Assembly: GCA_021325035.1 (NCBI GenBank)
Contig: JAJPHW010000198.1
Span: 1 to 47,098 of the forward strand
Reading direction: 5' to 3'
Length of the DNA stretch: 47,098 nucleotides
DNA from: Terriglobia bacterium
GTDB lineage: Bacteria > Acidobacteriota > Terriglobia > Terriglobales > Acidobacteriaceae
The translations under genes were made by a program, and so were the position numbers. Within the stretch, counting starts at the first letter, position 1. Each line of letters starts with the position of its first letter. The notes below the pieces were generated by a model. It did not search any database, had not been told where the DNA came from, and saw nothing but the letters and a program-made list of their open reading frames with translations. Of this stretch, positions 6,289-38,538 are shown piece after piece.

Positions 6289-6316
6289 AATGGAGTGTTT
6301 GGTCGAGGGAGCCATG

Positions 6317-8107: not shown

Positions 8108-8200
8108 GGACTTTCTCTTTCCACTCCCACCCGCGCACAACAACACATGCGCTTCGTTTTTTATTCGCCTTGCTATAAATCCTGTGATAAAACAATTTTC

Positions 8201-8800: not shown

Positions 8801-8846
8801 GCTTGATACAAGCTGGATTCTGCTCATTGTGGTTAAATAAATAAGC

Positions 8847-9263
8847 ATGGCAGATTCAAAGATTCGCGTGCTGGTCGCCAAACCCGGCTTGGACGGTCAT
8901 GATCGCGGTGCAAAAGTCATTGCACGAGCGCTGCGAGACGCCGGCATGGAGGTCATTTATACCGGTCTGCGACAAACGCCCGAAATGATTGTCAGCGCAT
9001 CGCTACAGGAAGATGTACACGTGATCGGGCTTTCCATTCTTTCTGGAGCGCACAACGCTATCGTTCCGCGCGTAATGGATCTGCTCAGACAAAACAAGAT
9101 GGAAGACGTCATCGTCGTCGTTGGCGGCATCATTCCCGATCAAGACATTGCAGCCCTGAAGCAAATGGGAGTAGCAGCCATTTTTCAGCCTGGAACTGCA
9201 ATGGACGACATCGTGAAGTTCATCCGAGCAAATGTAAAACCTCGCGGTGTTCCAGCCGTTTAA
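8847..9263 (+). CDS. icmB: Acyl-CoA mutase small subunit, B12-binding (IcmB-like)
   Basis: A stand-alone cobalamin-binding domain of 138 residues, close to the size of Streptomyces IcmB. DGHDRG at 16-21 is the DxHxxG motif, and His18 is the residue that displaces the dimethylbenzimidazole ligand of B12. LSILSGAHN and [11 protein letters not shown] are the other conserved loops that enclose the nucleotide tail. It should pair with the large subunit at 6317-8107 to form the holo-mutase. Stand-alone B12 subunits also occur in some archaeal and bacterial MCMs, so substrate assignment rests on the large subunit. Confidence 0.92.
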
Positions 9264-9292
9264 CGCAAGAATTAACCTGCAGCCCTTCACTC

Positions 9293-10021
9293 ATGTCTAG
9301 CGTGAATCTTTCTTCGACAAAGCGGCAATTGGAAAGTGCGGTTGGTCCTTCTCCATGGTACTGGGCAACATTTCCATCGTTCACTTCCTCATCAGGTCAA
9401 CGATTTAAATGGGCGCATCACGGTGAGCAAGGATCTGTCGCGTATGTAATTTCACTGCACTTGCAGCAGGAGCCTGAGAAACAGAGGCTTGCATTAAATA
9501 CCTATTGCCGGCCATTCCTAACAGGAGAAACGAAACTCGGAATTTGGTGCCCGGAAGGGCGAAATATACGGCTCGCGTGTTTTGATCCTGAGCGGCTTAA
9601 GGCATTCGATCTCGCGGAGATTGCCGGATGGTTCAAGCAATCCTCCGACAGGATTTACGCAGCGACTGCCCCGGTTGCAGACATGGAAGTTCCGCTCAAT
9701 CTAGGCGCAGGGACGCACAAAATTGACGTGCCGGAGTCATTGCGATCGGTGGATGAGTTGCTGGTTCCGACAAGTTATCCCGCGAAGAGTCCCGATGACC
9801 CGGCTTTCGCCATTTACGTTTTCTATCTGCGTGCAGGACTTGTGGATGTGCTTCCGCAGCGCTGGTTTACAGCCAGCCAATATCAAGTTGGCAAGCAATG
9901 GATTACCCGAGTCGCTCGCGATGCAGAAACGCAGCGACTGATTGGCGAATGTTTCGGCGCTGGAATCTTTCAATTGGAGGAAGATGGGTGCCGACTGGAA
10001 AAATGGCTCGAGAGGAAGTAG
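9293..10021 (+). CDS. Unrecognised protein within the acyl-CoA cluster
   Basis: I do not recognise this 242-residue protein. It has no signal peptide, no membrane segment and no nucleotide-binding or metal motif I can name. It is rich in aromatic residues (PSPWYWATFPSF near residue 20) and looks like a soluble mixed alpha/beta protein. It starts 29 bases after the B12 subunit and overlaps the start of the downstream crotonase gene, so it is probably cotranscribed. That makes a role linked to acyl-CoA metabolism possible but unproven. Normal codon use and tight packing support a real gene. Confidence 0.65.
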   Translation: MSSVNLSSTKRQLESAVGPSPWYWATFPSFTSSSGQRFKWAHHGEQGSVAYVISLHLQQEPEKQRLALNTYCRPFLTGETKLGIWCPEGRNIRLACFDPERLKAFDLAEIAGWFKQSSDRIYAATAPVADMEVPLNLGAGTHKIDVPESLRSVDELLVPTSYPAKSPDDPAFAIYVFYLRAGLVDVLPQRWFTASQYQVGKQWITRVARDAETQRLIGECFGAGIFQLEEDGCRLEKWLERK

Positions 10022-10631
10022 GCTGCCTACTAATTTCCAGATCGAGACGCGGGATCATGTCCACATTCTGCATATAACTTCCAGTGATGGAACCAACCGT
10101 CTCACGCAAGCTTTCATTCTCTCCCTGCATGGTGCTCTCAGCAACCTAAGGCAAACTCAAAAACCGATCATCGTTACTGGAAACGAAAACTATTTTTCCG
10201 TCGGGGCTGACCTCCAAGAGATTGCGGCTCTTACCGCTCCCGCCGCCTATGAATTTTCGAAAATCGGACAAAGACTGATGACCGCGATCTCGCAATTCCC
10301 TGCCCCGGTTTATGCTGCGATTTCTGGATTCTGCATGGGAGGAGGGCTGGATCTGGCGCTCGCATGTCATCGGCGCATTGCTTTCCCCAACGCTATATTT
10401 GGTCACCGAGGAGCGGCCCTTGGATTAATGACGGGCTGGGGTGGTACGCAACGGCTTCCACGCTTGATTGGCAAAGCGCTAGCTTTGCAGGCATTTTCAG
10501 CGGCAGAAAAAATCGACGCCATGGAAGCATCACGAATCGGACTCATTGATGGCGTGGCCCATGACCCGGTTTCGGAGGCCATTTTTAGGATCCAAAATAC
10601 CAGTTTGCGCCCCTCGCCTCTGCTGTTATAG
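9984..10631 (+). CDS. Enoyl-CoA hydratase/isomerase-family protein lacking both canonical Glu residues
   Basis: A crotonase-fold protein of about 215 residues. The first oxyanion-hole segment is SVGADLQEI, and the second is GFCMGGGLDLALAC. In classical hydratases two glutamates activate water. Here the first position is Asp123 (GGGLDLAL instead of GGGCELAM) and the second is Gly143 (FGHRG instead of FGQPE). Normal hydration is therefore unlikely, and an isomerase, dehalogenase, hydrolase or regulatory role is open. The C-terminus is about 40 residues shorter than usual. The start is uncertain: the ATG at 9984 has GGAGG 3 bases upstream and overlaps the previous gene by 38 bases; an ATG at 9942 and a CTG at 10023 are alternatives. 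Confidence 0.75.
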   Translation: MGADWKNGSRGSRLPTNFQIETRDHVHILHITSSDGTNRLTQAFILSLHGALSNLRQTQKPIIVTGNENYFSVGADLQEIAALTAPAAYEFSKIGQRLMTAISQFPAPVYAAISGFCMGGGLDLALACHRRIAFPNAIFGHRGAALGLMTGWGGTQRLPRLIGKALALQAFSAAEKIDAMEASRIGLIDGVAHDPVSEAIFRIQNTSLRPSPLLL

Positions 10632-10661
10632 GGTAAAAGTTTCGTATTTCTTCTTTCTTCT

Positions 10662-12362
10662 ATGGCTGAACGCAAGGAACCCACTCCCCCATCTGTCTCG
10701 CCACAGCTGGAAACGCGCGTGGACCCAACGTCTGCACGCTTCGAAGCTAACATGCGGTTTCTTGCGGACATGGTCTCGCAAGTACGCAATGAAGAAGAAA
10801 AGATCCGTGAGGGCGGCGGGAGTAAAGCCATCGAAAGCCAGCACGGCAAAGGCCGTTTGACCGCACGAGAGCGCATCGCAAGACTTGTGGATCAAGGCTC
10901 ATTTTTTGAGCTGGGAAGCTTTGCAGCTTACGGCATGTATGAAGAATGGGGCGGGGCACCGTCGGCTGGGGTGATCACGGGTCTGGCCCGCATTCATACA
11001 AGAATGGTCATGATCATCGCGAACGACGCCACCGTGAAAGCCGGCGCGTTCTTCCCGATGACATCAAAAAAGGTGATCCGGGCGCAGAACATTGCCATTG
11101 AGAATCGGGTTCCAACGATTTATCTGGTGGACTCCGCAGGCGTGTTTTTGCCACTGCAAGAAGACGTATTCCCCGACACTGATGATTTTGGCCGGGTGTT
11201 TCGCAACAACGCTGTCATGTCAGCCAAAGGTATTCCGCAGATTGCCGCCATTATGGGCATGTGCGTGGCTGGCGGCGGATATTTGCCGGTGATGTGCGAT
11301 CACGTCTTAATGACGGATGGCAGCGGGTTATTTCTTGCGGGCCCGGCGTTAGTACAAGCCGCGATTGGCCAGAAAGTTTCTGCTGAGGAGCTGGGGGGTG
11401 CAGCCATGCACTCGGCAATCAGTGGAACCCTCGATTTCCGCGAACCCAACGACGAAGCCTGCATTGAGCGCATTCGAGCCATCGTCGAAAAATGGGGATA
11501 TCGCCGGCAATCGCCCTGGGACCGACGCAAACCCGAGGCTCCCGCATTTGCTGCGGAAGAAATTTATGGGGTATATGACTCGTCGCCGGCGCGGCCCTAC
11601 GACATGAAAGAAGTTATCGCGCGAATCGTGGACGGTAGCCGCTTCGATGAATACAAGCCCGATTATGGCAAAACTTTAATTTGCGGATATGCCCGCATTG
11701 GCGGATTTGCTGTTGGCATTGTTGCCAATCAAAAGCTGCACGCCCAGGCAACCGACCACGAAGGCAAGAAGCGCGTTGAATTCGGTGGGGTCATCTATAC
11801 GGAGTCAGCAGAGAAAGCTGCGCGTTTCATCATGGACTGCAATCAAACTTTGGTCCCACTGGTCTTTTTTCATGATGTAAATGGGTTTATGGTCGGGCGC
11901 GACGCCGAGTGGAGCGGCATCATCAAGGCAGGCGCGAAGATGGTGAATGCAGTGTCGAATTCCGTCGTGCCAAAGATTACCGTTATCGTCGGGGGATCGT
12001 TTGGCGCAGGGCACTATGCCATGTGTGGCAAGGCTTACGATCCGCGGTTCGTGTTTGCCTGGGCGACAGCTCGATACGCCGTCATGAGTGGGGATTCAGC
12101 CGCAAGTACGCTGGTTGAAATCAAGATTCGCCAACTGGAGCGCGGCGGCAAGAAATTGAGTGAAGACGAGCGAAAAGAGCTCTTTGCGTCGGTTAAGAAG
12201 ACGTACGACGAGCAGACCGACCCTCGCTATGGCGCAGCCCGGCTGTGGATTGACAAGATCATTGATCCGGTTGAGACGCGGGATGCCATCACGAATGCAC
12301 TTGAAGCCGCATCGCTGAATCCTGACGTACCGGAGTTCAAAGTGGGAGTGCTGCAAACATGA
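10662..12362 (+). CDS. liuB: Acyl-CoA carboxylase beta subunit (methylcrotonyl-CoA carboxylase type)
   Basis: The 566-residue carboxyltransferase moves CO2 from biotin onto an acyl-CoA. It has the two crotonase-like halves, with the acyl-CoA site near CVAGGGYLPVMCDHV and the biotin-side motif FGAGHYAMCGKAYDPRF. FHDVNGFMVG and the MCG segment resemble methylcrotonyl-CoA carboxylase more than propionyl-CoA carboxylase, where DxPGFLPG is usual. Together with the HMG-CoA lyase and LiuC-type hydratase that follow, this points to leucine catabolism: 3-methylcrotonyl-CoA to 3-methylglutaconyl-CoA. The biotin carboxylase/biotin carrier subunit is not in the window. Its TGA overlaps the ATG of the next gene (ATGA), so the two are translationally coupled. 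Confidence 0.87.
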   Translation: MAERKEPTPPSVSPQLETRVDPTSARFEANMRFLADMVSQVRNEEEKIREGGGSKAIESQHGKGRLTARERIARLVDQGSFFELGSFAAYGMYEEWGGAPSAGVITGLARIHTRMVMIIANDATVKAGAFFPMTSKKVIRAQNIAIENRVPTIYLVDSAGVFLPLQEDVFPDTDDFGRVFRNNAVMSAKGIPQIAAIMGMCVAGGGYLPVMCDHVLMTDGSGLFLAGPALVQAAIGQKVSAEELGGAAMHSAISGTLDFREPNDEACIERIRAIVEKWGYRRQSPWDRRKPEAPAFAAEEIYGVYDSSPARPYDMKEVIARIVDGSRFDEYKPDYGKTLICGYARIGGFAVGIVANQKLHAQATDHEGKKRVEFGGVIYTESAEKAARFIMDCNQTLVPLVFFHDVNGFMVGRDAEWSGIIKAGAKMVNAVSNSVVPKITVIVGGSFGAGHYAMCGKAYDPRFVFAWATARYAVMSGDSAASTLVEIKIRQLERGGKKLSEDERKELFASVKKTYDEQTDPRYGAARLWIDKIIDPVETRDAITNALEAASLNPDVPEFKVGVLQT

Positions 12363-13243
12363 GCGCTTCGAAACAGGTCAAATTAATCGAATGTCCGCGG
12401 GATGCCTGGCAGGGGTTGCAAGGACAGATCCCCACACATATAAAGCTTGAATACCTCCGCAGTCTGATCAATGCCGGGTTTAAGCATATTGATGCGGTTT
12501 CGTTTGTATCACCGAAAGCCGTTCCTCAGATGGCAGATTCTGAAGATGTCTTGAAGGAACTGGATCCACCCGACGATGTTGAGATCATTGGCATCGTAGT
12601 CAACGAAAAGGGCGCTCAACGGGCTGTGGAAACACAAGCGGTCAGGACGCTGGGCTTCCCTTACTCGGTTTCACCAACTTTTTTGCAAAATAATCAGCGC
12701 CAGAGCTTGGAAGATGCGATTGAAGAATTGGAAAAAATACGCGCTATCGCCGAAAATTCCAGTTTGGATACGGTGGTTTATGTCTCCATGGCTTTCGGCA
12801 ACCCTTACGGAGACCAATGGAATATCGGAGAAGTCGTGGACGCCATTGACTTGCTTGAATCCATGGGTGTGCGAACGGTTTCGCTGGCTGATACGGTAGG
12901 CATGGCTGGCCCCAAGCAGATTCACGAATTAGTCTCGGCTGTGATTTCGAAATATGACTATCTTGAAATTGGCGTTCATCTCCATAGCCGCCCAGATCAG
13001 GCAACCGAAAAAATTCTGGCGGCCTTTGACGCTGGATGCCGGCGATTTGACTCTGCTCTCGGCGGACTGGGCGGCTGCCCGTTCGCGCAGGACGCATTGA
13101 TCGGCAATATTGCTACCGAGAAAGTAATCGAGGCACTGACTGCACGCGGCGTAGAGTTGCCCCCGTTGAAATCTCTTGCGACGTTGCTGCGCGCGTCGGA
13201 AGGAATTGGAGCGCAGTACACAACATCTCAGGCAGTGAGTTGA
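12359..13243 (+). CDS. liuE: Hydroxymethylglutaryl-CoA lyase (divergent family member)
   Basis: The enzyme splits HMG-CoA into acetyl-CoA and acetoacetate, the last step of leucine breakdown. The 294-residue DRE-TIM barrel keeps the catalytic Arg14-Asp15 (as PRDAWQG rather than the usual PRDGLQ), the metal ligands His207 and His209 (VHLHSRP rather than HCHDT), and the lid cysteine Cys240 in GLGGCPFA. The distance of 31 residues from the second His to Cys equals that in the human enzyme (His235 to Cys266). SFVSPKAVPQMAD is also conserved. The ECPRDAxQG form is what I recall from Bacteroidetes enzymes. Start and upstream stop overlap as ATGA. Confidence 0.88.
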   Translation: MSASKQVKLIECPRDAWQGLQGQIPTHIKLEYLRSLINAGFKHIDAVSFVSPKAVPQMADSEDVLKELDPPDDVEIIGIVVNEKGAQRAVETQAVRTLGFPYSVSPTFLQNNQRQSLEDAIEELEKIRAIAENSSLDTVVYVSMAFGNPYGDQWNIGEVVDAIDLLESMGVRTVSLADTVGMAGPKQIHELVSAVISKYDYLEIGVHLHSRPDQATEKILAAFDAGCRRFDSALGGLGGCPFAQDALIGNIATEKVIEALTARGVELPPLKSLATLLRASEGIGAQYTTSQAVS

Positions 13244-13250
13244 ATCGCGA

Positions 13251-14033
13251 ATGAACTATACCACCATCGAATTTAAACGGCAGGATGGCATAGCAACCAT
13301 AACGCTGAATCGTCCTGACAAGCGCAACGCCATCAGCTTCCAGTTGGTGGATGAGCTAATGCACGCGCTGGATGAGGCGGAAAAGTCCGGCGCACAGATA
13401 CTGATTCTTACCGGGGCAGGCAAGGCGTTCTGCGCAGGGATGGATATCGATGAACTGAAATCGCTGGTTGGGAAAACTCACGAGCAGAACGTGAAAGATT
13501 CGGCCCGCATGGCGGAGATGTTTCGCTTTCTTTATGAATATCCGCTGCCGACCATTGCAGCTGTCAATGGCGCAGCCGTTGCTGGAGGAACGGGACTAGC
13601 AACGATGTGTGACTTCACATTGGCCGTTCCTGATGCGAAATTCGGCTATACGGAAGTACGAATTGGTTTTGTTCCCGCGATTGTTTCATCCATCTTGGTA
13701 TGGCAGGTCGGACATAAGATCGCCCGCGATCTTCTGCTCACCGGACGCCTTTTTGATGCCGCGGAGGCGCACCTCTATGGATTAGTCAACGAAATTGTGG
13801 AGCCCGAGCGTCTCATGACGCGCACACACGAACTGGCCCAACAAATTCTCGCCAATAGCCCGTCATCGGTCCGCGCGACCAAACGCCTCATCAACAGCTT
13901 CATCGCAAAGCAGCTCGATCAGCAGATTGCTGAGGCCATTGAAGACAATGCGCGTATTCGCACCACAGCGGACTTCCGCGAAGGCGTGGCTTCATTTTTG
14001 GAAAAACGTAAACCAGTTTGGAGCGGAAAGTGA
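13251..14033 (+). CDS. liuC: Methylglutaconyl-CoA hydratase, LiuC-type crotonase
   Basis: The 260-residue enoyl-CoA hydratase has its first oxyanion loop in CAGMDIDEL and second in VAGGTGLATMCD. The first canonical catalytic Glu is Gly115, while the second is kept as Glu135 in YTEVRIGFVPA. This one-glutamate pattern with EVRxGxxPA is what bacterial LiuC methylglutaconyl-CoA hydratases show, and the gene sits beside the carboxylase and lyase of the same pathway. Its product, HMG-CoA, is the substrate of the preceding gene product. The gene follows the lyase by 7 bases and overlaps the thioesterase by 4 (GTGA). LiuC is the best call; a generic short-chain hydratase cannot be excluded. Confidence 0.85.
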   Translation: MNYTTIEFKRQDGIATITLNRPDKRNAISFQLVDELMHALDEAEKSGAQILILTGAGKAFCAGMDIDELKSLVGKTHEQNVKDSARMAEMFRFLYEYPLPTIAAVNGAAVAGGTGLATMCDFTLAVPDAKFGYTEVRIGFVPAIVSSILVWQVGHKIARDLLLTGRLFDAAEAHLYGLVNEIVEPERLMTRTHELAQQILANSPSSVRATKRLINSFIAKQLDQQIAEAIEDNARIRTTADFREGVASFLEKRKPVWSGK

Positions 14034-27332: not shown

Positions 27333-28280
27333 CTATTGGTTGTAAAACTTGCCCCCGAGAGCCTGATCACAGCCGCCACCGCGAGTGTTTTCCCATTCCA
27401 TTTGAATGAGCCAGTTGTAGGTACCGAAGGTTTCGTTGTAGACGCCGTGTCCAGCAAGACTCTTGTACGGACCAAATTTCCAGGCGCACTTATCGCCCAC
27501 TTCGTTTCCCTGCGCGTCGTATCAAGCGTTCAGGTCAGGATCGATGACGGTTTCGACAGCCTCGTGCGACATGATGGATACCATGCCATCAGCCCCGCTG
27601 TCACCGTTCGGGCTTTGGCTCTGCGCTTCGCAAGCCGATGGACAACGATCAGGATTGCCGACAAAAGCATATTTGATGTCCGTCCCCTCGAGGTTCACGT
27701 GATTGTGCCAACCGCAATATCGAGTGCAGAAACCTGAAGTCTCGGCTACATCCGACGAAGTCAATACGAAGTAGATGGCATTGCCGTCTTTGGGCAATCC
27801 GCTACTGATGGCATGCAAAACAACGACCTGCACATCGGCGTCGGTAAGCTGTTTTCCGCGGCTATAGCTATTGGTCACCGAGGCCAATTCATCAAGATTG
27901 CCGCTCGCGTTACCAGTTGCATCTCCGTATGTAGTTGTAATTTTGAAGTAGGAGGAACCTCCCATGCCGTGAGTTGGCCCAAATAATGTGTGTATCAGGT
28001 TGACGGTGTCTTCATGATCCGAAGTCTTGGGCCCGTTCGTCCAATTGCCATACCAGATGAAATAGGCGTGCACCGGGCTGCCATGCATGACCGGGCCGCC
28101 ATGGTAAAGGATGCCGTTGCCAGTTTTGACGATATCGGGCGCAAATTCAGCGTGGTCCATGGGAACGGAAACAGCCCAGCCCTTACCGGTTGGCACGAGG
28201 TGCGTAGCGGTGCGAGTGGTCTGTGCGAATGACGCCGCAACGCCTGTAAACACTGCGAGGACAAGAATAAGCTGACGCAT
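27333..28280 (-). pseudogene. EXORDIUM/PHI-1 (phosphate-induced protein 1) family protein, interrupted by TGA
   Basis: The protein is exported (MRQLILVLAVFTGVAASFAQ; GGAG precedes the ATG at 28280). It belongs to the PHI-1/EXORDIUM family, best known from plant cell walls: YHGGPVM, YFIWYGNW, YFVLTSSDV, GFCTRYCGWHNH, FVGNPDRCPSAC and GADGMVSIMSHE all fit. After 252 codons a TGA (27522-27524) interrupts it. The same frame then continues for 62 codons, YDAQGNEVGDKCAWKFG and onward, to a TAG at 27333-27335. Homologues read WYD here, so Trp TGG became TGA by one change. The tail still looks family-like, so the change is recent or a sequencing error. Function is unknown. Confidence 0.8.
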
Positions 28281-28505
28281 TAATTCTCCGTTTGGTGGCA
28301 AGTCATGGACTGATGGAGTTATACGTGGACGACGGAGGGCGGACAAATTACCCCCGAGGAGCAGGATGGTTACTCTAAGTCTTCATATGAGCTGAAAACA
28401 AAGTAGTTAGGAAGCGAGATTTCGAAATTGGGACATAAGGAAACACAGAGCGTCACGCCGGAACTAATATTTGCGGGGGCGGAGGCGTTTACGTCACGCA
28501 CGTTT

Positions 28506-31500
28506 TTATTTCTGATAGTCAAAAGCGAATCCCGGCGCTTCATGACCAGACATATAACGTGTGTTGTATTCGAGTAAATAATCGAGATGTGATGCATCGA
28601 GTGGGAACATTTGCTGCGGAGGATAGTTCTTCATGGCGGCATAGGGCAGAGGCGTCACGCGATCAAAGTCGAAGGCATAGAAATCCATATCTTTTTCGTA
28701 GCCTTCAGCGGCGAAGAAATAGTCGCGTGTCCAGCCGGAGGGCACGGGGGGTAGATTCGAAGGATCAAAATCGAGTTTGATTTCGTCTCCCGAACCGAAG
28801 ACGGCGAGGCGGTCGTCGAGATTGGTTAGCAATGGGAGCACGTCGCCGTAGCGCGTGTAATTTCCGGCCGGGCGGGAGTACGGGCCTGTAGCGCTGGCTT
28901 GCTCATAGATATACGCGACATTCCCCGGAGGTTGGTTTTCGATTTTCCGGGGGAAGCCATGGAAGTCGAGATCGGCACGGGCGAGCGGAACGTCGGTCAC
29001 CTGTGCTGGCTGCTCTTGTTTTGTCCTACTTATCAGGATGCTGTCCCAATAAATTTGAAGATTTGTCGTGATTCGAAGATGCCGCGCGCCCATGGGCAGC
29101 TTACCAGAAAGATCGGCGGTCATCGTGCGCGGACCACCGGCGGGAAAGCCGAGGTCATCAATAAGGCGAACCCACTTACCCTCTGCATTTAGCGCCTCGA
29201 CGTATGGCGCGATCGGCTCGAGCCCAGCCTGACTGGCAGCGTACATGCTAGTCGCGGTGAAATATTCGATTTCGCCGTGCATGAGCAACCAGAGCGGCCC
29301 CCCGTCATAATCTTTGCCTAGATCAAGTTCGAGCGAATGCGGTTCTGTGAAGCCGGAGAACTGCAAGACTTTAAAATCACCGATGAAATTGTGCGCCAAG
29401 AGATTGGGAAGAACGTCGTGGCCGTGATCGTCCACCGCTGCAACGGGTGGGTGTGCGTCCCGGCTGAAGATAACTTTGAACGGCGGATAGGGCGGATTGG
29501 AAGCGAAGTACTCGTTGGGATAAACATTTAGCGCAGCAGGGTGATCAACCGCCAATAGGCGTACGCGATCGAGATAAACCGCTTCCTCGAGCGGCTCCAT
29601 GAAACGGAAGCTCAGTTTGCCGTCTTTGGGCTGGAGCGAACGATCGAGTTTCACGTATTCGACTGGACGCGCAATATTTCGCTCGTCAGGCGCAACCCAA
29701 TGGCCGATTGCTCCTGCACCGAGCATGTCGGCGACGAGTGTATAAGCTTTTCCGTCCCAGGCGAAAAGCGTAGGACAAGAACTACCTCGCCGGTCAATCT
29801 CGGTGATGGATTCCGTTTGATCAGCGGCAATTTCGACTTCATCCTGCAAAACACCTGTTGGCCATAGCATGCGGACAACATCGGCTTGTTTTTCCTGGCC
29901 TAGACCGATAACGATATCAGTGGAGTTCTGGCCAAGATAACCATTCGATCCGTAGATTTCATATTTCTGGCGATTGCCGCCGGAAAAGACTTCGACTTTT
30001 GTCCCGATGGCACTTTTGTTGTCGTTAAGCCCTTTCAGCGACAAACGCAGCCAGTGATTTTTGTTGGCACCGACATTCTTTAGCAACACTGCTGGCCCAT
30101 GATTTTGCGTGATGAGAAGATCTGTCGTGCCATCCCCGTCGAAGTCAGCCGTGGCAATCGAGCGCGGGTCTTTGAGGATGATTTTGTCGAGACCAACGTC
30201 GGCTGTAACGTCTTTCCATCCGTCGGGACCGAGATTCCGGAAGAGACGGACTTCACCTTTGCCATCTTTGGTTTCACCAACGGCGGCGAGATCAACCCAG
30301 CCATCGTTGTCGTAGTCGAGAGCGGCGAGGCCGAAGGCGCGAACCCAACTGGTCGCGGGGAATGTCACGTTCTCTAGGTCTTTTCCTTGCTTATTGCGAA
30401 GCACACTCAGGGCCGGCACGCCGACTTCCCCGTTGACGTGTGTGAAAGCCAAATCTATCCATCCATCATGGTTAAAGTCCAGTGCTGTCACTCCAACTGT
30501 TGGGTACATCGCACCAGCTTTAAATTCCACCGGGATGAATTTTCCTTCGCGCGGATTCCCCATAACAGTGTAGGTTAGCTGGAAACCAGTCTGCACGAGA
30601 TCTACAGCGCGGTCGTTGTTGAAGTCGGTCGCGATTGCCGATATGTTCGGACCTACATCGAGTCCCACCACATCGCTTACATCGGTGAATGTTCCGTTGC
30701 CGTTGTTTCTCCACATCTTTCCCATGGCAGGAACGCCATGCGCGGGATGCGATTTATCTCGTTGTGTCCATGGATCAAATGCAGAGTCGTTCAGATATTG
30801 AGATACGAGCAGATCCAGATCGCCGTCGTGATCGTAATCCACAAAAGTCACGCCCAAATTGAATACAGGGCCACTCACAACAAATGTGATTCCGGCAGAG
30901 CCTGTGACATCTTTTAACATTCCGTTCTTCTCGTTATGTAGAAGCATAATGCGGTCGCTCAAACCGATTACCAGATCTGTCGCGCCGTCATTGTCGTAAT
31001 CTCCAGCAGTGCAAGCAATGGCGTGAAGCGAAGGATCGAGTCCGGCTTTTTTCGTTACATCTTCAAACTTCCCATTGCCTAGATTGTGATATAGCGCCAT
31101 GCCGCCCTGCGGGCCGTTATCAGCGAGAAAAATGTCCGGCTTGCCATCGCCGTCATAGTCGAAGACGCAAGCACCGGGCCCGAGAGATCCCGCCAGATCG
31201 TTAGCTTTGTTTGAAGACTTAAAACCAAGTCCAGCCTCAGCGGTGACATCGACAAATCGCACGGGAATTTGTGGCGGAACTTTTTGCGGCGCAGCAGCAG
31301 ATTGTTCAGCAAGTGAATATTTGCCCTGCTCTCCGTAGGCGAGGCTAATGGGCGTGCCCAGTTTTTTCTGCGTAAAGTATTGGAAACGCTCTAAACCTTC
31401 TTTAGCTTTGGCTTGATCTCCGGATTGTTGATAAGCCCGCGCCAATCCAAATTGCGAAGAAGCATGATATGGATTCAATTTGAGCGCGTGATTATAAGAA

Positions 31501-31991
31501 TCAATGGCCTGAGGAAATTGCTTGAGCTGAGCATACACAGAACCGAGGAAATACCAGACGTCAGGATCGGCGGAATCAATTTCGATGACGTGAAGGAATG
31601 CATCTACTGCACGATCTGGCGAATTGCTGTTTTTGTAGAGTAGTCCGAGATTGTACCAAGCGTAGGGGTCTTTCGGATTTTCTTTTGCGGTAGTTTCAAG
31701 GATCTGCTGTGCGGGATCCAGCTCGCCGATGTTGAGTAGAGCAATACCTTGATTGAGCTTCGCGATTTGAAGATTGGGATCGAGTTTTGAGGCCTGCTCA
31801 AAGAGATGCAGGCCTTTTTCAAATGCCTGCTGATTCATGTATCCCGCGCCAAGGTTATTGAGACGAGCAGCTTCAGTGGGATTCGTTTGGGCGGCCGCAC
31901 ACAAACTGATCGAGAAAACAGCAATCCAGATCCGGACGGCAGTATGGAGATTCACAAGAGGATTTAAACACAGACCGTGAATATCAAGCAT
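28506..31991 (-). CDS. Exported TPR + seven FG-GAP repeats + ASPIC/UnbV protein with a C-terminal unassigned module
   Basis: The 1161-residue secreted protein has four parts. A signal peptide (IWIAVFSISLCAAAQ) leads into about five TPRs at 40-215. Next come seven FG-GAP/VCBS repeats with calcium-loop motifs (FDYDGDGKPD, GDYDNDGATD, VDYDHDGDLD, TDFNNDRAVD, LDFNHDGWID, LDYDNDGWVD, ADFDGDGTTD), enough for a seven-bladed propeller. An ASPIC/UnbV domain follows (KSAIGTKVEVFSG). About 400 further residues, from SCPTLFAWDGKAYTLVADML, form a beta-rich module I cannot name, though I recall similar tails in other TPR/propeller proteins. The gene starts 39 bases after the related propeller gene and probably belongs to the same operon. 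The start codon lacks a clear ribosome site. Confidence 0.85.
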   Translation of the reverse strand: MLDIHGLCLNPLVNLHTAVRIWIAVFSISLCAAAQTNPTEAARLNNLGAGYMNQQAFEKGLHLFEQASKLDPNLQIAKLNQGIALLNIGELDPAQQILETTAKENPKDPYAWYNLGLLYKNSNSPDRAVDAFLHVIEIDSADPDVWYFLGSVYAQLKQFPQAIDSYNHALKLNPYHASSQFGLARAYQQSGDQAKAKEGLERFQYFTQKKLGTPISLAYGEQGKYSLAEQSAAAPQKVPPQIPVRFVDVTAEAGLGFKSSNKANDLAGSLGPGACVFDYDGDGKPDIFLADNGPQGGMALYHNLGNGKFEDVTKKAGLDPSLHAIACTAGDYDNDGATDLVIGLSDRIMLLHNEKNGMLKDVTGSAGITFVVSGPVFNLGVTFVDYDHDGDLDLLVSQYLNDSAFDPWTQRDKSHPAHGVPAMGKMWRNNGNGTFTDVSDVVGLDVGPNISAIATDFNNDRAVDLVQTGFQLTYTVMGNPREGKFIPVEFKAGAMYPTVGVTALDFNHDGWIDLAFTHVNGEVGVPALSVLRNKQGKDLENVTFPATSWVRAFGLAALDYDNDGWVDLAAVGETKDGKGEVRLFRNLGPDGWKDVTADVGLDKIILKDPRSIATADFDGDGTTDLLITQNHGPAVLLKNVGANKNHWLRLSLKGLNDNKSAIGTKVEVFSGGNRQKYEIYGSNGYLGQNSTDIVIGLGQEKQADVVRMLWPTGVLQDEVEIAADQTESITEIDRRGSSCPTLFAWDGKAYTLVADMLGAGAIGHWVAPDERNIARPVEYVKLDRSLQPKDGKLSFRFMEPLEEAVYLDRVRLLAVDHPAALNVYPNEYFASNPPYPPFKVIFSRDAHPPVAAVDDHGHDVLPNLLAHNFIGDFKVLQFSGFTEPHSLELDLGKDYDGGPLWLLMHGEIEYFTATSMYAASQAGLEPIAPYVEALNAEGKWVRLIDDLGFPAGGPRTMTADLSGKLPMGARHLRITTNLQIYWDSILISRTKQEQPAQVTDVPLARADLDFHGFPRKIENQPPGNVAYIYEQASATGPYSRPAGNYTRYGDVLPLLTNLDDRLAVFGSGDEIKLDFDPSNLPPVPSGWTRDYFFAAEGYEKDMDFYAFDFDRVTPLPYAAMKNYPPQQMFPLDASHLDYLLEYNTRYMSGHEAPGFAFDYQK

Positions 31992-32030
31992 GGGGCTGCA
32001 ATCGAATTTGACTATTGAGAAAATTCCGCA

Positions 32031-33698
32031 TCATTGCCAGGTTTTGCTGTATGTGCGCGCCGCAATTACACCTTTACCCTCCTGCACCGTTATGGTCTGT
32101 CCGGCATTGATATTGGAAAGCTTATCCACTTGTCCGCTAGGCCATTTGATCTCGATAGAATCGGCTTTAACTGAGCTTCCCATGCCGAAGGTCAATGTTA
32201 GCTCGCTTTGCGAAAGATAACTCGATCCGCTGTGGACGCTCTTGTTCTGATCGTCTTTTCCGGAAACCACGCGAACATTGGCTCCGATACCATCGCGATT
32301 AGATTTTGTCCCGACAAGCTTGACACGAAGGCTGCGATTTGTCCCATTCTGGCTATGATATAGATAGGCGCGGCCAGCGTTGGTGGTAAGTAGCACATCG
32401 AGAAATCCATCGTCGTCTATGTCGGCGTATGCCGCGCCGCGAGCTACTTTTGGGCTGGCAAAGTCCGTGCCGACAGATTGCGTAACTTCTTGAAACTTGC
32501 CCGAACCAAGGTTGCGGAAAAGATGCGGCGGCTCGGCGTAGTGCACTCGTTTCTGAACGCGTTCAATCGCATCTTCAATATGGCCGTCGGCGACGAAGAT
32601 ATCCTGCCAGCCGTCGTTATCGTAATCAAAGAAAAAACAGCCAAAGCCTAGAGTAACCAATGTCGCGCGGCCGACTTCGGATGCGGGGGCGTAGTCCACA
32701 AAGAGGCCGTTGCCTTCATTGTGATAGAGCGAAAGCATCTGGTTGGCAAAATTCGTAATGATGAGACTGGGTTTGCCTGAGCGGTCGTAGTCAGCGGCAT
32801 CCACACCCATGCCGGCACGAGCGACGCCGTCTTCACTGAATGCAATTCCCGCGGACACGCCCTTCTCCACGAATGTTCCATCATGCTGGTTTATATATAG
32901 CTTGTTGGGCTGAGTATCGTTGGCGAGAAGAATGTCAGGCCAACCGTCACCATCAAGATCGAAGACTACTACGCCCAGACTCTTCGATGTCGGATCATAG
33001 AATTTCGCTTTTTGCGTGGCGTCTTCAAACTTACCGTTGCCGAGGTTGTGCCAAAGGCGGGCCGAGCTGCCTTTGTAGGATTCAGGTGTGCAATAAGACT
33101 TGTGCGCGCCGTCAATGGTGCAGTAAAGATCGCCTTTCTCGGACCAATCCACGTAATTGGCGACTACGAGGTCAAGTTTGCCATCGCGATCGTAATCCAC
33201 CCAGGCGGCGCTGGTGGAGAAGCCAAGCGTGCCTTCGAGCCCAGCAGACTTGGTTACATCAGTAAATGTCCCGTTTCCATTGTTATGAAAAAGACGGCTC
33301 TGGCCGAGCGCGCTGATAAAAATGTCATCGAAACCGTCGTTGTCGTAGTCGCCTATTGTGGCACCCATACCGTACATGGAAACACCCAACCCAGCTTTGC
33401 GGGTTACATCGGTAAATGTGCCGTCGTGATTGTTGTGGTACAGCTTTGGCGTAGTAGCTGCGCCGGCATGACCGGGCCAGTTCTCACCGTTAATGAGAAG
33501 GATGTCAGGCCAGCCGTCGTTATCGTAATCAATAAAAGCGCACCCCGGCCCCATGGTTTCGGGGAGATATTTCTTGCCGAAAGCTCCGTTGTTATGAATG
33601 AAGTGGATTCCAGCCTGGGCGGTGATGTCGCGGAATTGAATTTGTTGGGCGGCAACATATAGAGAACTCAATGTGAAAATCAACAAGAATGTGCGCAT
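32031..33698 (-). CDS. Exported seven-repeat FG-GAP propeller with ASPIC/UnbV domain (CRTAC1-like)
   Basis: The 555-residue protein has a signal peptide (MRTFLLIFTLSSLYVAAQ) and seven FG-GAP repeats: FIDYDNDGWPD, IGDYDNDGFDD, WVDYDRDGKLD, VFDLDGDGWPD, AADYDRSGKPS, FFDYDNDGWQD and YADIDDDGFLD. Six keep the calcium-loop acids; the fifth has degenerated. The C-terminal ASPIC/UnbV domain (DGIGANVRVVSG, SSYLSQSELTLTFG) gives the same plan as human CRTAC1, whose biochemical role is poorly known. It probably works outside the cytoplasmic membrane as a binding or scaffold protein. Its ATG overlaps the stop of the cytochrome gene by one base (TAATG), so synthesis of the two is coupled. Confidence 0.88.
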   Translation of the reverse strand: MRTFLLIFTLSSLYVAAQQIQFRDITAQAGIHFIHNNGAFGKKYLPETMGPGCAFIDYDNDGWPDILLINGENWPGHAGAATTPKLYHNNHDGTFTDVTRKAGLGVSMYGMGATIGDYDNDGFDDIFISALGQSRLFHNNGNGTFTDVTKSAGLEGTLGFSTSAAWVDYDRDGKLDLVVANYVDWSEKGDLYCTIDGAHKSYCTPESYKGSSARLWHNLGNGKFEDATQKAKFYDPTSKSLGVVVFDLDGDGWPDILLANDTQPNKLYINQHDGTFVEKGVSAGIAFSEDGVARAGMGVDAADYDRSGKPSLIITNFANQMLSLYHNEGNGLFVDYAPASEVGRATLVTLGFGCFFFDYDNDGWQDIFVADGHIEDAIERVQKRVHYAEPPHLFRNLGSGKFQEVTQSVGTDFASPKVARGAAYADIDDDGFLDVLLTTNAGRAYLYHSQNGTNRSLRVKLVGTKSNRDGIGANVRVVSGKDDQNKSVHSGSSYLSQSELTLTFGMGSSVKADSIEIKWPSGQVDKLSNINAGQTITVQEGKGVIAARTYSKTWQ

Positions 33699-36589
33699 TA
33701 ATGAGCGGCTCCGATGTGAGCTGTGATTTCTGCCGGGTTATGCTCGACTGGACGACCGGCAGCTGACGTCCCCAGGCGGGCAGTGTTTACTCGAGTTTGT
33801 CCGGTCAAAGGAACGGAAACATGTTCGTGAATCGCTTGCCGTTCGTTGTTGTCTTCAGGATGCAATTGACGATATGGTCCTGTGATAGCCTGCGCTGATT
33901 CATCTGCCTTGAAACGTAAATAGCGCTCTTCATGCTCACTGGCCATTTTGTTATTGCCTAATCCGCGATAGCAGAGCATCAGGTTGTAGTGGGCTTGCAA
34001 GTCTTCAGGATCAACTTCCAAAACTTTATCCAACGCAGCCACCGCTTCTGCATATTTGCGCTGTAAAAACAATATGCGCCCAAGATCGTTCAACGCGACA
34101 CGATCTCGCGGGTATTGTGTCAAAACCTGGCGCAAATGATTAGCTGCGCCGTCGTAATCGCCATCACTGCGCAGGACGCGCGCGTAGAAGTAGTGAGCAC
34201 GGGCGAGATTAGGATTGATTGCAAGCGCTTTTTCGAGCATCGTCCGGGCGTGCGGCATATCGCCTTCCTGCACCGCACAACGACCAATGTTGACCCATCC
34301 GTCGGGATTGCTGGGATCGATTTCCGTAATCTTTGCAAACGCTGCGGCGGCGCCTTTCAGATCTCCCTGAAGAAACAATCCGATGCCATAATCATTCCAG
34401 CGCTGCCAATCGTTTTTTTGCAGCGTTAGTTCCGGTTTTGGCAGCGGAGCATTGCGCGGCGCGACATTCAACGACACTTCGTTTTCTGCAACTGCGACGA
34501 TCGGCACATCGGGAATTGCTTCTTTTTTAGCCGAGACACCCGCGAGCGGCGCCGTAAAAGTAAAATTGCGATCGTCAAAATTCGGTGTGGCGGCCGAATC
34601 CGATCCTTGAGGAGACCCTGCAAATGCAAATTGCGTATTCCACCACGCGAATTTGCGATAGCAAAGGCGAGCGTGGAGAGTAATTTTATTGCCCACATTC
34701 TCCGGAATGTGCAGACGATAGTGGACTGTATCGGCGGCCCCGGGCGGAATTAAACGTACATAGACAACCGCTCGCGTGGACCAGGCATTGCGTTTGTTGA
34801 TGGGATTTCCATGAGCGTCAACCTGCAACGACCGATAGAAGTGAGCGCCTTTTTCGACTGGGCCCTTGCCATCATCTTCGACCTTACCGCTCCAAAAAAT
34901 TGTCTGATTTTTGTCGTCGGTAGCTTTGAGTTCAAGCCAGGTGTCGTATGCATCCACAGTTCCGCCGGGGAAAAAATGGCCAACAGTTTTTGTGCGGACG
35001 ACCACTTCCACGCGAACCGTATCGCCGCGGCGTACCGTCGCATTCGCTCGATTTAAAGGTGCAGTGACTGGCATAGTTTCAGTTTCTGTTGCCGGAGTAA
35101 TCTTGGTCTCGGCCTCTTCCCCTACGGCAAATGTGGTTGACAGATCCGCCTGGCTTGCCGTGCCTGATTTAACTTCGGCAGATTCCGGGGTGAGCGCAAA
35201 AATATCTACGCTCAACTTCTTGTCCTTCAGAAAATCTTCTGTGAGCTTAAGCTGCTGTTCATCTTCGTTCGCAATAGGAACAGCGGTGTTCGCACCCGGG
35301 AAACGGTGCGAATGAACAAACCCACCAATATTACCGGCATCTCCGGAGTGCGTAAGCGGCATATGGCAATCGGCACACTGTGAAGGCTTCGCCGGATAAT
35401 AAAACGACCGTGCTCCCTGACCCGATACACCACTCGCCTGCCAGTTGTCGTATTCGTTGAATCCACGGAACCAGCGATAGTGGTTCACTGGAACATCGAG
35501 ATGCACTTTGTGACAGCTCGAACAAAACTCGGCAGTTTGATCACGCATAAACGGCTTGAGAAAAACCCGGCGATGCGGTTCCGGATTCAACTTCACCAAG
35601 AAATCATGCAACGTACGCACGACAGGATTCTTACTCGCAGCCAACTCATGCAGCTTGGGATACTCCAGATAAAAATCTGCCTGGCCCATCGTGCTTTTAA
35701 CGCTGGAAATCGAATGGCACATCATGCAGCCAAGTCCCGCTTGCGCGGCGGGCGTGTGGACAATTTGTTTTATGGGAGTATCCATCTTGCCACTGTAGAG
35801 TAGAGCCGGGTCATGGCATCCTGCGCACCATTTGGAGGGCTTGGTGCCGATGGTGTCCTGCATGTATTCAATGCTCTTGCGATACCACTGATTATTGAAG
35901 GATGAAAAGTGGTGCATTGAACTAAACCATTGCTGGTAGATATCCTGATGGCATCGCTGGCAGGAGTCCGACTCCATGAAATATTCACTGGGGATTTTTT
36001 GTCCGCCAAGCACCTGCGCCGAACTGGGAAAGAAAGCTCCGTTCGATCCGTCACCCTCATCTGCCATCTCAGCAGGAGGCATTTTAGGATTCTCGATGCG
36101 CGAATGGTTCTGCCAGCGCGATTGACGGAGATAGTGTGCGCCGAAACCCAGGGCAGTCAGCACCAACAGGGCAACTCCGGCTCTCGCCAGCGATGCCGCG
36201 ACCGGATGAGATTCCCTTCTTCCGAGCCATTCCGAAAACAAAATTCCTGCGCCCGCTAGCGAAATCAGAATGTGCGCATAAAGCCATTTCCATTCAGCGC
36301 GTGGCGTACCAATTTTAACGAGAAGAATGCCAACAATTGCACCGCTGAGAAGAAGCAGCCATCCAGCCCGCCCCAACGGAGTGGCATCACGAAATATGCG
36401 GAAAAGATAGATTGCCAAAAGCAACGCGACAATGGCGCCTGCTAAAGCGTGAAGAAGAACCACGCCCGCATAAAGAACATTCGCCTGCGGAAACGTGTAG
36501 AGATATGCAGCCGACACCACGAGAAATATAAAGAGGGCTGGAATGAGGCGAGGATATGTACGAACGGCGGTTGTTCTCTGATTCAACAT
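33698..36589 (-). CDS. Membrane-anchored pentahaem cytochrome c with C-terminal TPRs
   Basis: The 963-residue protein starts with five hydrophobic helices (about 13-33, 41-64, 76-92, 103-121, 135-150), which would put the rest in the periplasm. Five haem c sites follow: CQRCH (210-214), CAGCH (255-259), CMMCH (288-292), CSSCH (356-360) and CADCH (405-409). A beta-rich stretch (about 520-670, including VEVVVRTKTVGHFFPGG) leads to about four or five TPRs at 720-900. This resembles cytochrome c-554-like multihaem proteins but with membrane and TPR parts added. It is the first gene of the three-gene unit with the two propellers. Donor, acceptor and substrate are unknown. Confidence 0.87.
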   Translation of the reverse strand: MLNQRTTAVRTYPRLIPALFIFLVVSAAYLYTFPQANVLYAGVVLLHALAGAIVALLLAIYLFRIFRDATPLGRAGWLLLLSGAIVGILLVKIGTPRAEWKWLYAHILISLAGAGILFSEWLGRRESHPVAASLARAGVALLVLTALGFGAHYLRQSRWQNHSRIENPKMPPAEMADEGDGSNGAFFPSSAQVLGGQKIPSEYFMESDSCQRCHQDIYQQWFSSMHHFSSFNNQWYRKSIEYMQDTIGTKPSKWCAGCHDPALLYSGKMDTPIKQIVHTPAAQAGLGCMMCHSISSVKSTMGQADFYLEYPKLHELAASKNPVVRTLHDFLVKLNPEPHRRVFLKPFMRDQTAEFCSSCHKVHLDVPVNHYRWFRGFNEYDNWQASGVSGQGARSFYYPAKPSQCADCHMPLTHSGDAGNIGGFVHSHRFPGANTAVPIANEDEQQLKLTEDFLKDKKLSVDIFALTPESAEVKSGTASQADLSTTFAVGEEAETKITPATETETMPVTAPLNRANATVRRGDTVRVEVVVRTKTVGHFFPGGTVDAYDTWLELKATDDKNQTIFWSGKVEDDGKGPVEKGAHFYRSLQVDAHGNPINKRNAWSTRAVVYVRLIPPGAADTVHYRLHIPENVGNKITLHARLCYRKFAWWNTQFAFAGSPQGSDSAATPNFDDRNFTFTAPLAGVSAKKEAIPDVPIVAVAENEVSLNVAPRNAPLPKPELTLQKNDWQRWNDYGIGLFLQGDLKGAAAAFAKITEIDPSNPDGWVNIGRCAVQEGDMPHARTMLEKALAINPNLARAHYFYARVLRSDGDYDGAANHLRQVLTQYPRDRVALNDLGRILFLQRKYAEAVAALDKVLEVDPEDLQAHYNLMLCYRGLGNNKMASEHEERYLRFKADESAQAITGPYRQLHPEDNNERQAIHEHVSVPLTGQTRVNTARLGTSAAGRPVEHNPAEITAHIGAAH

Positions 36590-36659: not shown

Positions 36660-38078
36660 TCAGGCCGATTCAGAAGGAACCCGCCAACCGCCAGTCTCAC
36701 GTTCTAGCAATTCTGCCACCGACAGGACGATTTCCTCCTGCCACGGAAGCCCGACAACCTGCACACCAATTGGCAATCCTTCTTTTGAATTGCCAGTGGG
36801 AACTACCACTGAAGGCATGCCAAGCAAATTAAACCATTCGCAATAGCTCCAGGCATCGAGGTATTTGACCGTCTTACCTTCGACTTCCCATTCGCGTTCC
36901 CAATGTTTGAACGCTGGAACTGACGCGACGGGACAAACGATAATGGGATACTCCCGCATTTGCCGGAAAACTTCCATACGGACAACATCGCGCTGCGTCC
37001 AGGCATGGAGTAACGAATCCCCGGTATGGGGTGGCTCGGCCGCAACCCAATCGCAAAATTGGCGCAAGATTGGGCTAAGGTCCAATTCACGCCCCTTGAG
37101 CATGGGCGCAAGCAACATGCCCCCTGCAATGCCAAAGAATTGCCACCAAACCTTACGGGCGCGCTCCAAGCCTTCTGGACGAAACTGTTCGACACGAAAT
37201 CCCGCTCGGCTCAATCCATTGGCGGCCGTTTTAACAGCTTCATGTGTCTCTTTTGTGACTGGTGTACGCCCATCATCTTCGAAATACCCTATTCGAATTT
37301 TGTCTAGCTCACCAGGTTTTGGCCATCGCACAGGTATAGGAGCAGCAGAAGGATCCCCGTCATCAGCCCCTTGCATTACTTCAAACAGCAATTTCAAATC
37401 TGCGACGGTCCGCGCCATGGGACCGACTACGCCGAGCAAAGCGAACGGCCCAACGGACTGAGGAAAATGTCCAGTGGCCGGAATGCGCCCCGGAGTCGGT
37501 TTCAATCCACAAATTCCACAAAAATGTGCAGGGATACGAATAGATCCGCCGCCGTCGCTGCCGACTCCTCCGGCAGAAAGACCCGCCGCAATCGCTGCGG
37601 CTTCGCCGCCGCTTGAACCACCAGCTGTATGCACGAGACTCCAGGGATTATTCGTGCGCCCATGAAGAAGATTGTCCGTTTCCCACGCCATCAGGAGTTC
37701 AGGCGTATTCGTAACGCCAAGAATGACTGCACCAGCGTCTCGCAAACGCTGAACTAACGGTGCATCTTTTTCTCCAATCGTTCCTTGCCTGAGTTTTGTT
37801 CCAACTTCGAACGGCATTCCTGCAACTTCGATTGAGCTTTTGATACTGATAGGCACTCCATGCAATGGACCTGCAACTCGATCCGACTCCAGCTGTCCTT
37901 CCGCAAAAAGCGCTTGCCGCCGTGCGCCTTCGGCACCCACTTTTATGAATGCATTCAACTTCGGATTGAGTCGTTCAATGTCCTCTAAGTGAACCTCGAC
38001 GAGTTCGGTGCAAGAGATTTCACGATGCCGCGTCTTTTCGGCCATGGCTGTAGCAGATAGATAATTGAGTTTGGTCAT
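36660..38078 (-). CDS. Amidase-signature hydrolase
   Basis: The 472-residue enzyme has the Ser-cisSer-Lys triad of the amidase signature family. Lys80 lies in GVPISIKSS, Ser155 in AGGSSGGEAA and Ser179 in GSDGGGSIRIPA. The spacings (75 and 24 residues) equal those in fatty acid amide hydrolase (Lys142, Ser217, Ser241). FCGICGLKPTPGRIP follows, as in the eukaryote-like branch. GSDGGGS replaces the more common GSDTGGS. It hydrolyses a carboxamide that cannot be named from sequence. No gatB or gatC neighbour is present, so a tRNA amidotransferase role is unlikely. No signal peptide; cytoplasmic. Confidence 0.92.
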   Translation of the reverse strand: MTKLNYLSATAMAEKTRHREISCTELVEVHLEDIERLNPKLNAFIKVGAEGARRQALFAEGQLESDRVAGPLHGVPISIKSSIEVAGMPFEVGTKLRQGTIGEKDAPLVQRLRDAGAVILGVTNTPELLMAWETDNLLHGRTNNPWSLVHTAGGSSGGEAAAIAAGLSAGGVGSDGGGSIRIPAHFCGICGLKPTPGRIPATGHFPQSVGPFALLGVVGPMARTVADLKLLFEVMQGADDGDPSAAPIPVRWPKPGELDKIRIGYFEDDGRTPVTKETHEAVKTAANGLSRAGFRVEQFRPEGLERARKVWWQFFGIAGGMLLAPMLKGRELDLSPILRQFCDWVAAEPPHTGDSLLHAWTQRDVVRMEVFRQMREYPIIVCPVASVPAFKHWEREWEVEGKTVKYLDAWSYCEWFNLLGMPSVVVPTGNSKEGLPIGVQVVGLPWQEEIVLSVAELLERETGGWRVPSESA

Positions 38079-38166
38079 GAAATATCAGCAGGAAAACGGA
38101 GTCTAGCACGGACGGTCAAATTTCACTCTAAGTTGCTCTAGAATGTTCACTGCTGGGAGGAAAAAT

Positions 38167-38538
38167 ATGAAACATGCTCCGCGATTTTTAAATATCGTGA
38201 ATGATGCCAAAAAGCGCGTAAAAGAAACAACCATTGACGCCATCAAACAACGGCTCGACAACAAGGATAAATTCATTTTGGTGGACGTGCGCGAGGAAAG
38301 CGAATTTGCGAAAGACCATCTCCCCACAGCAATCCATTTGGGCAAAGGCATCATCGAGCGAGACATTGAAGATCGTGTGCCCGACTTAAATGCGCCGCTC
38401 GTTCTATATTGCGGGGGCGGCTTTCGCTCGGCTCTGGCTGCGGATAATCTGCAGAAAATGGGTTACACCAATGTGCTCTCGATGGACGGCGGCATTCGCG
38501 AGTGGCGGGAGAAAAATTTTCCCCTGGTGAAAGACTAG
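38167..38538 (+). CDS. Single-domain rhodanese (sulfurtransferase)
   Basis: The 123-residue protein is one rhodanese domain. VDVREESEFAKDHLPTAIHLGKG holds the CH2-A region, and YCGGGFRSALAA gives the active-site Cys82 with a six-residue loop ending in Arg, as in sulfur- rather than arsenate-handling forms. MDGGIREWRE closes the domain. The ATG at 38167 follows GGGAGG by 6 bases, which decides it over the ATG at 38143. It handles persulfide sulfur in the cytoplasm; the partner is unknown. It is divergent from the amidase gene. Confidence 0.92.
   Translation: MKHAPRFLNIVNDAKKRVKETTIDAIKQRLDNKDKFILVDVREESEFAKDHLPTAIHLGKGIIERDIEDRVPDLNAPLVLYCGGGFRSALAADNLQKMGYTNVLSMDGGIREWREKNFPLVKD

Follow-up and report, generated by a model that had tools for sequence, protein, structure and literature searches.

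In a 47 098 nt stretch of the 3.86-Mb draft genome of a Terriglobia bacterium (GCA_021325035.1; contig JAJPHW010000198.1, contig 67 of the genome, here called the window), a gene for a membrane-anchored pentahaem c-type cytochrome with C-terminal tetratricopeptide repeats (TPRs), designated CYT, is followed by a gene for an FG-GAP/ASPIC propeller protein of the CRTAC1 family, PROP1. CYT and its propeller gene are a real unit, with a linkage in relatives that is far beyond chance. This linkage points to a putative electron-transfer complex that has not been described before. That the unit encodes an electron-transfer complex of b/c type, linked to quinones and with a CRTAC1 propeller as its dedicated subunit, is about as likely as not.

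On the minus strand the gene order is CYT (33698–36589, 963 aa), PROP1 (32031–33698, 555 aa) and PROP2 (28506–31991, 1161 aa), the last encoding a protein with TPRs, a propeller, an ASPIC domain and a C-terminal region. One base (33698) is common to CYT and PROP1, and 39 bases separate PROP1 and PROP2. A first-pass annotation, made from the letters of the window, had described three packed minus-strand genes with this overlap and gap, and all of its coordinates are correct. Its account of the first product as a five-helix protein with five CxxCH sites and TPRs is confirmed for CYT by the structural model, the motif count and Pfam.

Linkage of CYT and propeller genes

Conservation was assessed in 80 named loci of Terriglobia type. 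They are the top 80 of 544 in a scan of a genome collection, all from Acidobacteriota by title and all close relatives (58–75 % identity in the best segment). A same-strand PROP1-type frame lies directly downstream of CYT, starting within 1.2 kb, in 75 of the 77 with at least 600 bases beyond CYT. The two exceptions are L107, where the propeller is on the opposite strand, and L135, which has a short contig end and a propeller upstream only. In a further set of 60 loci from single-protein and profile searches, a propeller gene was counted if on the same strand and within 1.5 kb of CYT. This was the case in 25/25 orthologue-like loci with room on both sides (30/33 without the room condition) and in 17/24 remote loci with room (17/27 without it). 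Six of the 60 are also named loci; after their removal a propeller is beside CYT in 19/19 orthologue-like and, again, 17/24 remote loci. Sixteen CYT-carrying genomes have 1 to 17 ASPIC genes each, from which chance adjacency is estimated to be of the order of 1 %. The position of the propeller gene varies among the remote loci, upstream of CYT at some and downstream at others; this speaks against simple inheritance of gene order. Start codons that overlap the end of CYT by one or four bases exist at 39 of 68 CYT–PROP1 junctions, while 18 have no start near the CYT stop; the overlaps suggest translational coupling.

The first-pass annotation had treated the three genes as one unit and had proposed a search for their conserved co-occurrence. 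Linkage holds for CYT with a propeller gene and does not extend to an obligate trio. Of the 56 named loci with room, only 36 have PROP2 within 4 kb downstream. Since 22 of the 40 PROP2-type genes sampled stand alone, PROP2 is ruled out as an obligate third member. The other sampled genes are accompanied by a same-strand CRTAC1 gene only (seven), by CYT (six), or by CRTAC1 together with an NqrB/RnfD-like gene (five), the limits being 1.5 kb on the same strand for CRTAC1, 3 kb for the NqrB/RnfD-like gene (UnbU) and 2.5 kb for CYT. Five of the six CYT-linked PROP2 genes also have a same-strand CRTAC1 gene no more than 1.5 kb away. PROP2-type C-terminal regions were found in 41/119 genomes.

In a single-protein search (E 0.001) the non-TPR part of CYT was matched in 40/61 genomes, own genome included, some of them weakly. 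A CYT profile matches 82 of 247 genomes drawn over Acidobacteriota (E 1e-20), although some weak matches may rest on the TPR part; among the matches listed for these 82 genomes, 28 are near full-length (one in two pieces) and the others partial or remote. In a plasmid collection, CYT was matched at 30 % identity in Granulicella and at 22 % in Nitratiruptor (two records) and Aeromonas. On the Granulicella tundricola plasmid NC_015057.1 (7809–10151), the CYT homologue, 30 % identical over 77 % of CYT in a match that begins after the membrane domain, is followed by a one-haem cytochrome c gene, and three CRTAC1 genes and a TonB receptor gene are nearby. The homologue is annotated merely as 'tetratricopeptide repeat protein', a label that hides its haems in public annotation.

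No description of a CYT–propeller unit was found in open-licence PMC papers, in keeping with the first-pass statement that no such system was known. That statement needs one qualification: an excerpt of PMC12758564 describes a CRTAC1 gene flanked by hydrazine-synthase-like haem-protein genes (alpha and beta-gamma clusters). Excerpts of PMC3174227 and PMC8407742 mention ASPIC/UnbV paralogues and membrane-bound multihaem cytochromes for Acidobacteria in general, and those of PMC3669403 and PMC11636273, on acidobacterial cytochromes, contain nothing that bears on the unit.

Membrane domain and candidate haem b of CYT

CYT comprises, in order, a five-helix membrane domain (residues 11–159; 36113–36559), a region of CxxCH motifs (residues 210–409), a conserved beta region (residues 510–660) and TPRs (residues 725–898; 33896–34417). 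In the model the N-terminal part forms five long helices, at residues 11–32, 38–68, 71–93, 97–123 and 130–159. The domain was compared in an alignment of 137 sequences, each scoring above 60 bits, with at least three CxxCH motifs and more than 600 residues; 131 of them are distinct in the haem and beta regions. Every one of the 117 distinct homologues with a five-helix part, of which 102 are orthologues, 12 middle and three remote members, carries both H47 in helix 2 (about 36449–36451) and H106 in helix 4 (about 36272–36274). The other 14 are gapped at H106: three are cut or broken frames (L068, L117 and L190), and in nine remote and two middle homologues a single hydrophobic segment replaces the five helices. 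Among 22 diverse rows, with identity down to 13 %, the sole invariant columns are H47, G51 and H106.

In known membrane haem b families the haem is held by a paired-histidine site with a nearby glycine. The distribution of positive residues would place the N-terminus of CYT inside, in which case H47 and H106 would lie towards the periplasmic side, and the pair suggests a haem b at that side of the protein. Conserved paired histidines in helices are a feature that CYT has in common with the cytochrome b561 and DUF4405 domains, and two remote members give matches to these families: L075 matches DUF4405 (29.8 bits, cut-off 26.7) and L074 gives a cytochrome b561 match (Ni_hydr_CYTB, E 0.007) below cut-off. 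A profile search with the membrane domain returned no convincing solved relative (best E 0.046). The invariant membrane histidine pair looks new.

Haem, beta and TPR regions of CYT

The c-type haem region (residues 202–440; 35270–35986) matches PF13435, Cytochrome_C554, above cut-off (E 1.3e-8; 29.2 and 36.1 bits, cut-off 20.8), and CYT is the sole match to this family in its genome. There are exactly five CxxCH motifs, at residues 210, 255, 288, 356 and 405, the first being CQRCH and the last CxxCHMP. The same number is found in 34 of 36 counted family members, CYT included; the exceptions (L058 and L068) are broken or cut frames. C210, C213 and H214 are present in 109/109 orthologue rows with residues at these positions, some of the rows being duplicates. 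Besides the histidines of the motifs, H226, H227, H339, H363 and H428 are invariant in 70 aligned orthologues (the window CYT and 69 of the named loci), enough to give each c haem two histidines, the arrangement of pure electron carriers. Middle and remote homologues also retain H226, H339 and H428. Together, the five CxxCH motifs, the five further invariant histidines and the two membrane histidines support a role for CYT in electron transfer, in line with the first-pass proposal of a complex that passes electrons. The genome has three cytochrome c assembly matches.

Among solved structures, the haem region is closest in sequence to 5ze8, a chain of cytochrome c552 (E 3.7e-5, about 96 residues aligned). 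A literature search on pentahaem cytochrome c552 found nothing. Searches with the CYT model were dominated by TPR matches and so carry no information on the haem part. The beta region (34610–35062), which contains the motif GHFFPGGT, has no reported Pfam match.

PROP1 and PROP2

Both propeller proteins have FG-GAP_3 and one UnbV_ASPIC domain above cut-off (UnbV_ASPIC 68.4 bits in PROP1 and 54 bits in PROP2; cut-off 23.4), and PROP2 additionally has TPRs. The ASPIC domain of PROP1 is at 32088–32291; in PROP2 the TPRs are at about 31365–31880, the seven-motif propeller at about 30054–31271 and the ASPIC domain at 29814–30011. With a loose pattern, seven DxDxDG-type motifs are found in each. The exactly seven FG-GAP repeats of the first-pass annotation thus stand for the two window proteins; in homologues seven is usual, not universal (PROP1-type: seven in 57 and six in 11 of 68; PROP2-type: seven in 23, eight in eight and six in three of 34). 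A profile of 15 PROP1-type proteins matches murine CRTAC1 (9etn) at E 3.7e-38, and the same structure superposes on the PROP2 model (Z 36.1, rmsd 2.9, 450 residues). Fold-search matches of the PROP2 model are CRTAC1, then integrins, many other propellers and TPRs. Murine CRTAC1 shares with PROP1 and PROP2 an FG-GAP propeller followed by ASPIC; the window proteins differ in being bacterial and linked to a cytochrome gene, and PROP2 in its TPRs and C-terminal region. The propellers appear to be exported, as judged by eye from their hydrophobic N-termini.

The C-terminal region of PROP2 (residues 735–1161, about 426 residues; 28509–29789) was matched by no Pfam model at E 10. It is kept in the homologues L219 (31 % identity) and L220 (28 %), which are linked to UnbU-type genes, and is a candidate new domain family. 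A Tat signal was considered as a sign of a cofactor and rejected: with a loose pattern, RRx-like motifs occur close to the start of 14 of 78 non-redundant PROP1-type frames, some clearly by chance, and PROP1 in the window has none.

Propellers beside other redox genes

Some propeller genes of this family also pair with other redox genes. Among 20 other CRTAC1 genes sampled, four have a redox neighbour: an UnbU-type gene in two and CxxCH proteins on both sides in two. (The gene was not re-found by the profile at L232, and a three-CxxCH frame two genes away at L218 was not counted.) At L219 and L220 the gene adjoining CRTAC1 encodes an NqrB/RnfD-like membrane protein, and there is a PROP2-type gene in the vicinity. 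At L215 (2683–8196) and L221 (4142–9388) CRTAC1 is situated between genes for an HZS_alpha-domain protein and a propeller/MauG/cytochrome c protein; the HZS-alpha-domain and MauG-type proteins of these two loci have four, two, two and one CxxCH motifs.

Sets of PROP2-type, CRTAC1 and NqrB/RnfD-like genes, some with one-base overlaps, were observed in Acidobacteriota at L219, L220, L241, L245, L246, L250 and L252. PF03116 is above cut-off in six of seven UnbU-type proteins tested; that of L220 has no Pfam match and was recognised through its similarity to the L219 protein. The propeller system thus seems to exist in a second redox version. These sets resemble the UnbU/UnbV cassette, named from enediyne clusters, in which propeller genes are paired with an NqrB/RnfD-family membrane protein, as in some of the other genomes sampled; in the window the membrane partner is instead a pentahaem cytochrome, and the genome itself has no PF03116 match at E 0.001. 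A constant association of CRTAC1 genes with redox genes is ruled out by the count of only 4/20. The propeller by itself is no redox marker, and is a general module, recruited repeatedly, though not exclusively, to redox systems.

A tentative extension, rather less probable than the interpretation of the unit itself, is that envelope redox complexes of a new class use CRTAC1/ASPIC propellers as exchangeable subunits for docking. One or two such propellers would then serve, in different complexes, a b/c pentahaem cytochrome, an NqrB/RnfD-like protein or hydrazine-synthase-like haem proteins, as membrane or periplasmic electron carriers. If this is true, bacterial UnbV/CRTAC1 proteins would have a testable role. 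The swapping of redox partners by propellers and the gene combination look new; the parts belong to known families.

Proposed mechanism

CYT would be an inner-membrane electron-transfer protein, in which the five-helix part may hold one haem b between H47 and H106, near the periplasmic face. This haem would exchange electrons with the quinone pool, and the five c-type haems would carry them onward through the periplasm. The TPR domain may be a docking arm that holds PROP1 and, where present, PROP2 in a physical complex. PROP1, from the overlapping next gene, would be a dedicated partner, docking on CYT and bringing it together with the terminal electron donor or acceptor; PROP2, which has TPRs of its own and a further domain, would be an optional larger partner. 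Electrons more likely flow from quinol through CYT to an acceptor in the periplasm or outer envelope, such as a small cytochrome c. The one-haem cytochrome c gene beside the G. tundricola homologue fits a periplasmic acceptor, although that homologue is the 30 % match that begins after the membrane domain. The surface location and bound substrate that the first-pass annotation had suggested are not directly supported.

Several results weigh against a quinone-linked b/c complex. The window membrane domain matches none of the known haem b families in Pfam, and the five-helix part is absent from 11 of 27 remote homologues, with one more cut by a contig end. H363 is retained in 10/15 middle and 0/12 remote homologues and H227 in 3/15 and 1/12; two histidines per haem are thus not needed throughout, and an open haem may be present in some members. 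The model of the CYT haem region is poor (ten-residue means 31 to 84, mostly below 70), and haem ligand pairs are consequently not assignable from it; geometry was dropped. No same-strand propeller gene is within 1.5 kb in 7/24 remote CYT loci, 16 of the 20 sampled CRTAC1 genes lack a redox neighbour of the kinds described above, and no cofactor site was found in PROP1 or PROP2.

Alternative explanations

One alternative is that CYT is an enzyme of the NrfA/HAO/c554 kind. One of its haems would reduce or oxidise a small compound of nitrogen, sulfur or oxygen, and the propeller would be a structural subunit, as in hydrazine-synthase-like clusters. This is unlikely, though the most probable of the alternatives. 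Loss of H363, and for the most part of H227, in remote homologues could free a haem site, and both the Cytochrome_C554 match and the relation to the 5ze8 chain are consistent with such an enzyme. So are the placing of CRTAC1 between HZS-like haem-protein genes elsewhere, as in the excerpt of PMC12758564, and a rhodanese-domain gene that the window shares with 17 of the 80 named loci, near CYT. The orthologues, however, retain five further histidines for five haems, CYT lacks a CxxCK haem, and none of the recurring neighbours, only some of which were run against Pfam, was recognised as a gene for nitrogen or sulfur respiration.

Somewhat less probable again is the oxidation of sugars or polysaccharide fragments, in which the propeller would bind or convert the sugar and CYT take up the electrons. 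The G. tundricola unit adjoins genes annotated as sugar-binding domain protein, GH88, sugar porter and TonB receptor; the family of the GH2-type gene of the window recurs in 16/80 named loci, and a sugar-porter-like family, assigned by eye, in 14/80. Most of these recurring neighbours, however, are from close relatives in which gene order is shared, and the genes run against Pfam include no flavin or PQQ dehydrogenase. The structural matches include a propeller lectin and aldos-2-ulose dehydratase, tied with many unrelated propellers, but the sequence profile search did not return the dehydratase.

A redox sensor or assembly platform, with CYT sensing the quinone state and the TPR and propeller modules recruiting envelope proteins, is improbable. 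Regulators do recur near CYT (a histidine kinase family in 20/80 and a LuxR-type family in 18/80 named loci, and a Crp/Fnr-type family, of which two members were checked, in 4/41 loci), but most loci are without them, none was seen beside the window unit, and six candidate haems are many for a sensor. That the linkage is simply inherited gene order without function is very improbable and was already disfavoured, for although the named loci are close relatives, the remote propeller gene may be upstream or downstream yet is adjacent in 17/24, and the overlaps suggest translational coupling.

Comparison with known systems and significance

The NapC/NrfH/CymA quinol dehydrogenases are membrane-anchored multihaem cytochromes with one helix. 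CYT is likewise a membrane-anchored multihaem cytochrome that is proposed to take electrons from quinol, but with five helices and paired histidines, and its Cytochrom_NNT match (E 0.049, 13.8 bits) is below the cut-off of 24.1. Cytochrome c554, NrfA and HAO are grouped in one superfamily, and NrfA nitrite reductase has a CxxCK active-site haem. CYT shares with this group PF13435 above cut-off and the last motif CxxCHMP; it differs in that all five motifs are CxxCH, with no CxxCK, and in its fusion to membrane, beta and TPR parts.

The Mtr-type porin–cytochrome conduit consists of an outer-membrane porin and a decahaem cytochrome encoded together; neither gene was found among the window genes run against Pfam. 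A family of outer-membrane barrels (PF25183 with CarboxypepD_reg, one member checked) was observed near CYT in 3/41 loci (L038:1002–4418, L040 and L046). The hydrazine-synthase-like clusters have CRTAC1 between haem-protein genes in the excerpt of PMC12758564, similar to the arrangement at L215 and L221. In contrast, CYT has no HZS_alpha, MauG or YNCE match in Pfam and possesses a membrane domain and TPRs; HZS_alpha was also without a match in the neighbours tested.

Acidobacteriota are common in soil, and little is known of their respiration. If the interpretation of a quinone-linked complex is right, the routes into or out of the quinone pool would include a further module, of membrane haem b and multihaem c, and the widespread CRTAC1/UnbV proteins would gain a testable partner.

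Regulation and neighbouring genes

Control of the unit by FNR was considered and rejected: the sole perfect box (3877–3890) is far away, and the 29 matches with up to two mismatches compare with 25.75 expected. Between 27300 and 38700 a promoter scan found none against 8.9 expected, and a terminator scan found 14 against 13.9 expected. Elsewhere in the genome, on contig 137 (L208:2734–6393), a sensor kinase and a LuxR-type regulator, identified by eye, precede a CRTAC1 gene whose product has a twin-arginine-like start.

An amidase gene (36660–38078) lies 70 bases upstream of CYT on the same strand, and its family is found in 31/80 named loci. The rhodanese-domain gene is at 38143–38538. Just downstream of PROP2 is a gene for a Phi_1 (phosphate-induced protein 1) protein (27522–28346), a family described mainly in plants and present in 1/80 named loci. 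Further away, genes for methylmalonyl-CoA mutase, B12-binding, carboxyl transferase, HMGL-like and enoyl-CoA hydratase proteins are clustered at 6290–14033, probably an acyl-CoA degradation cluster.

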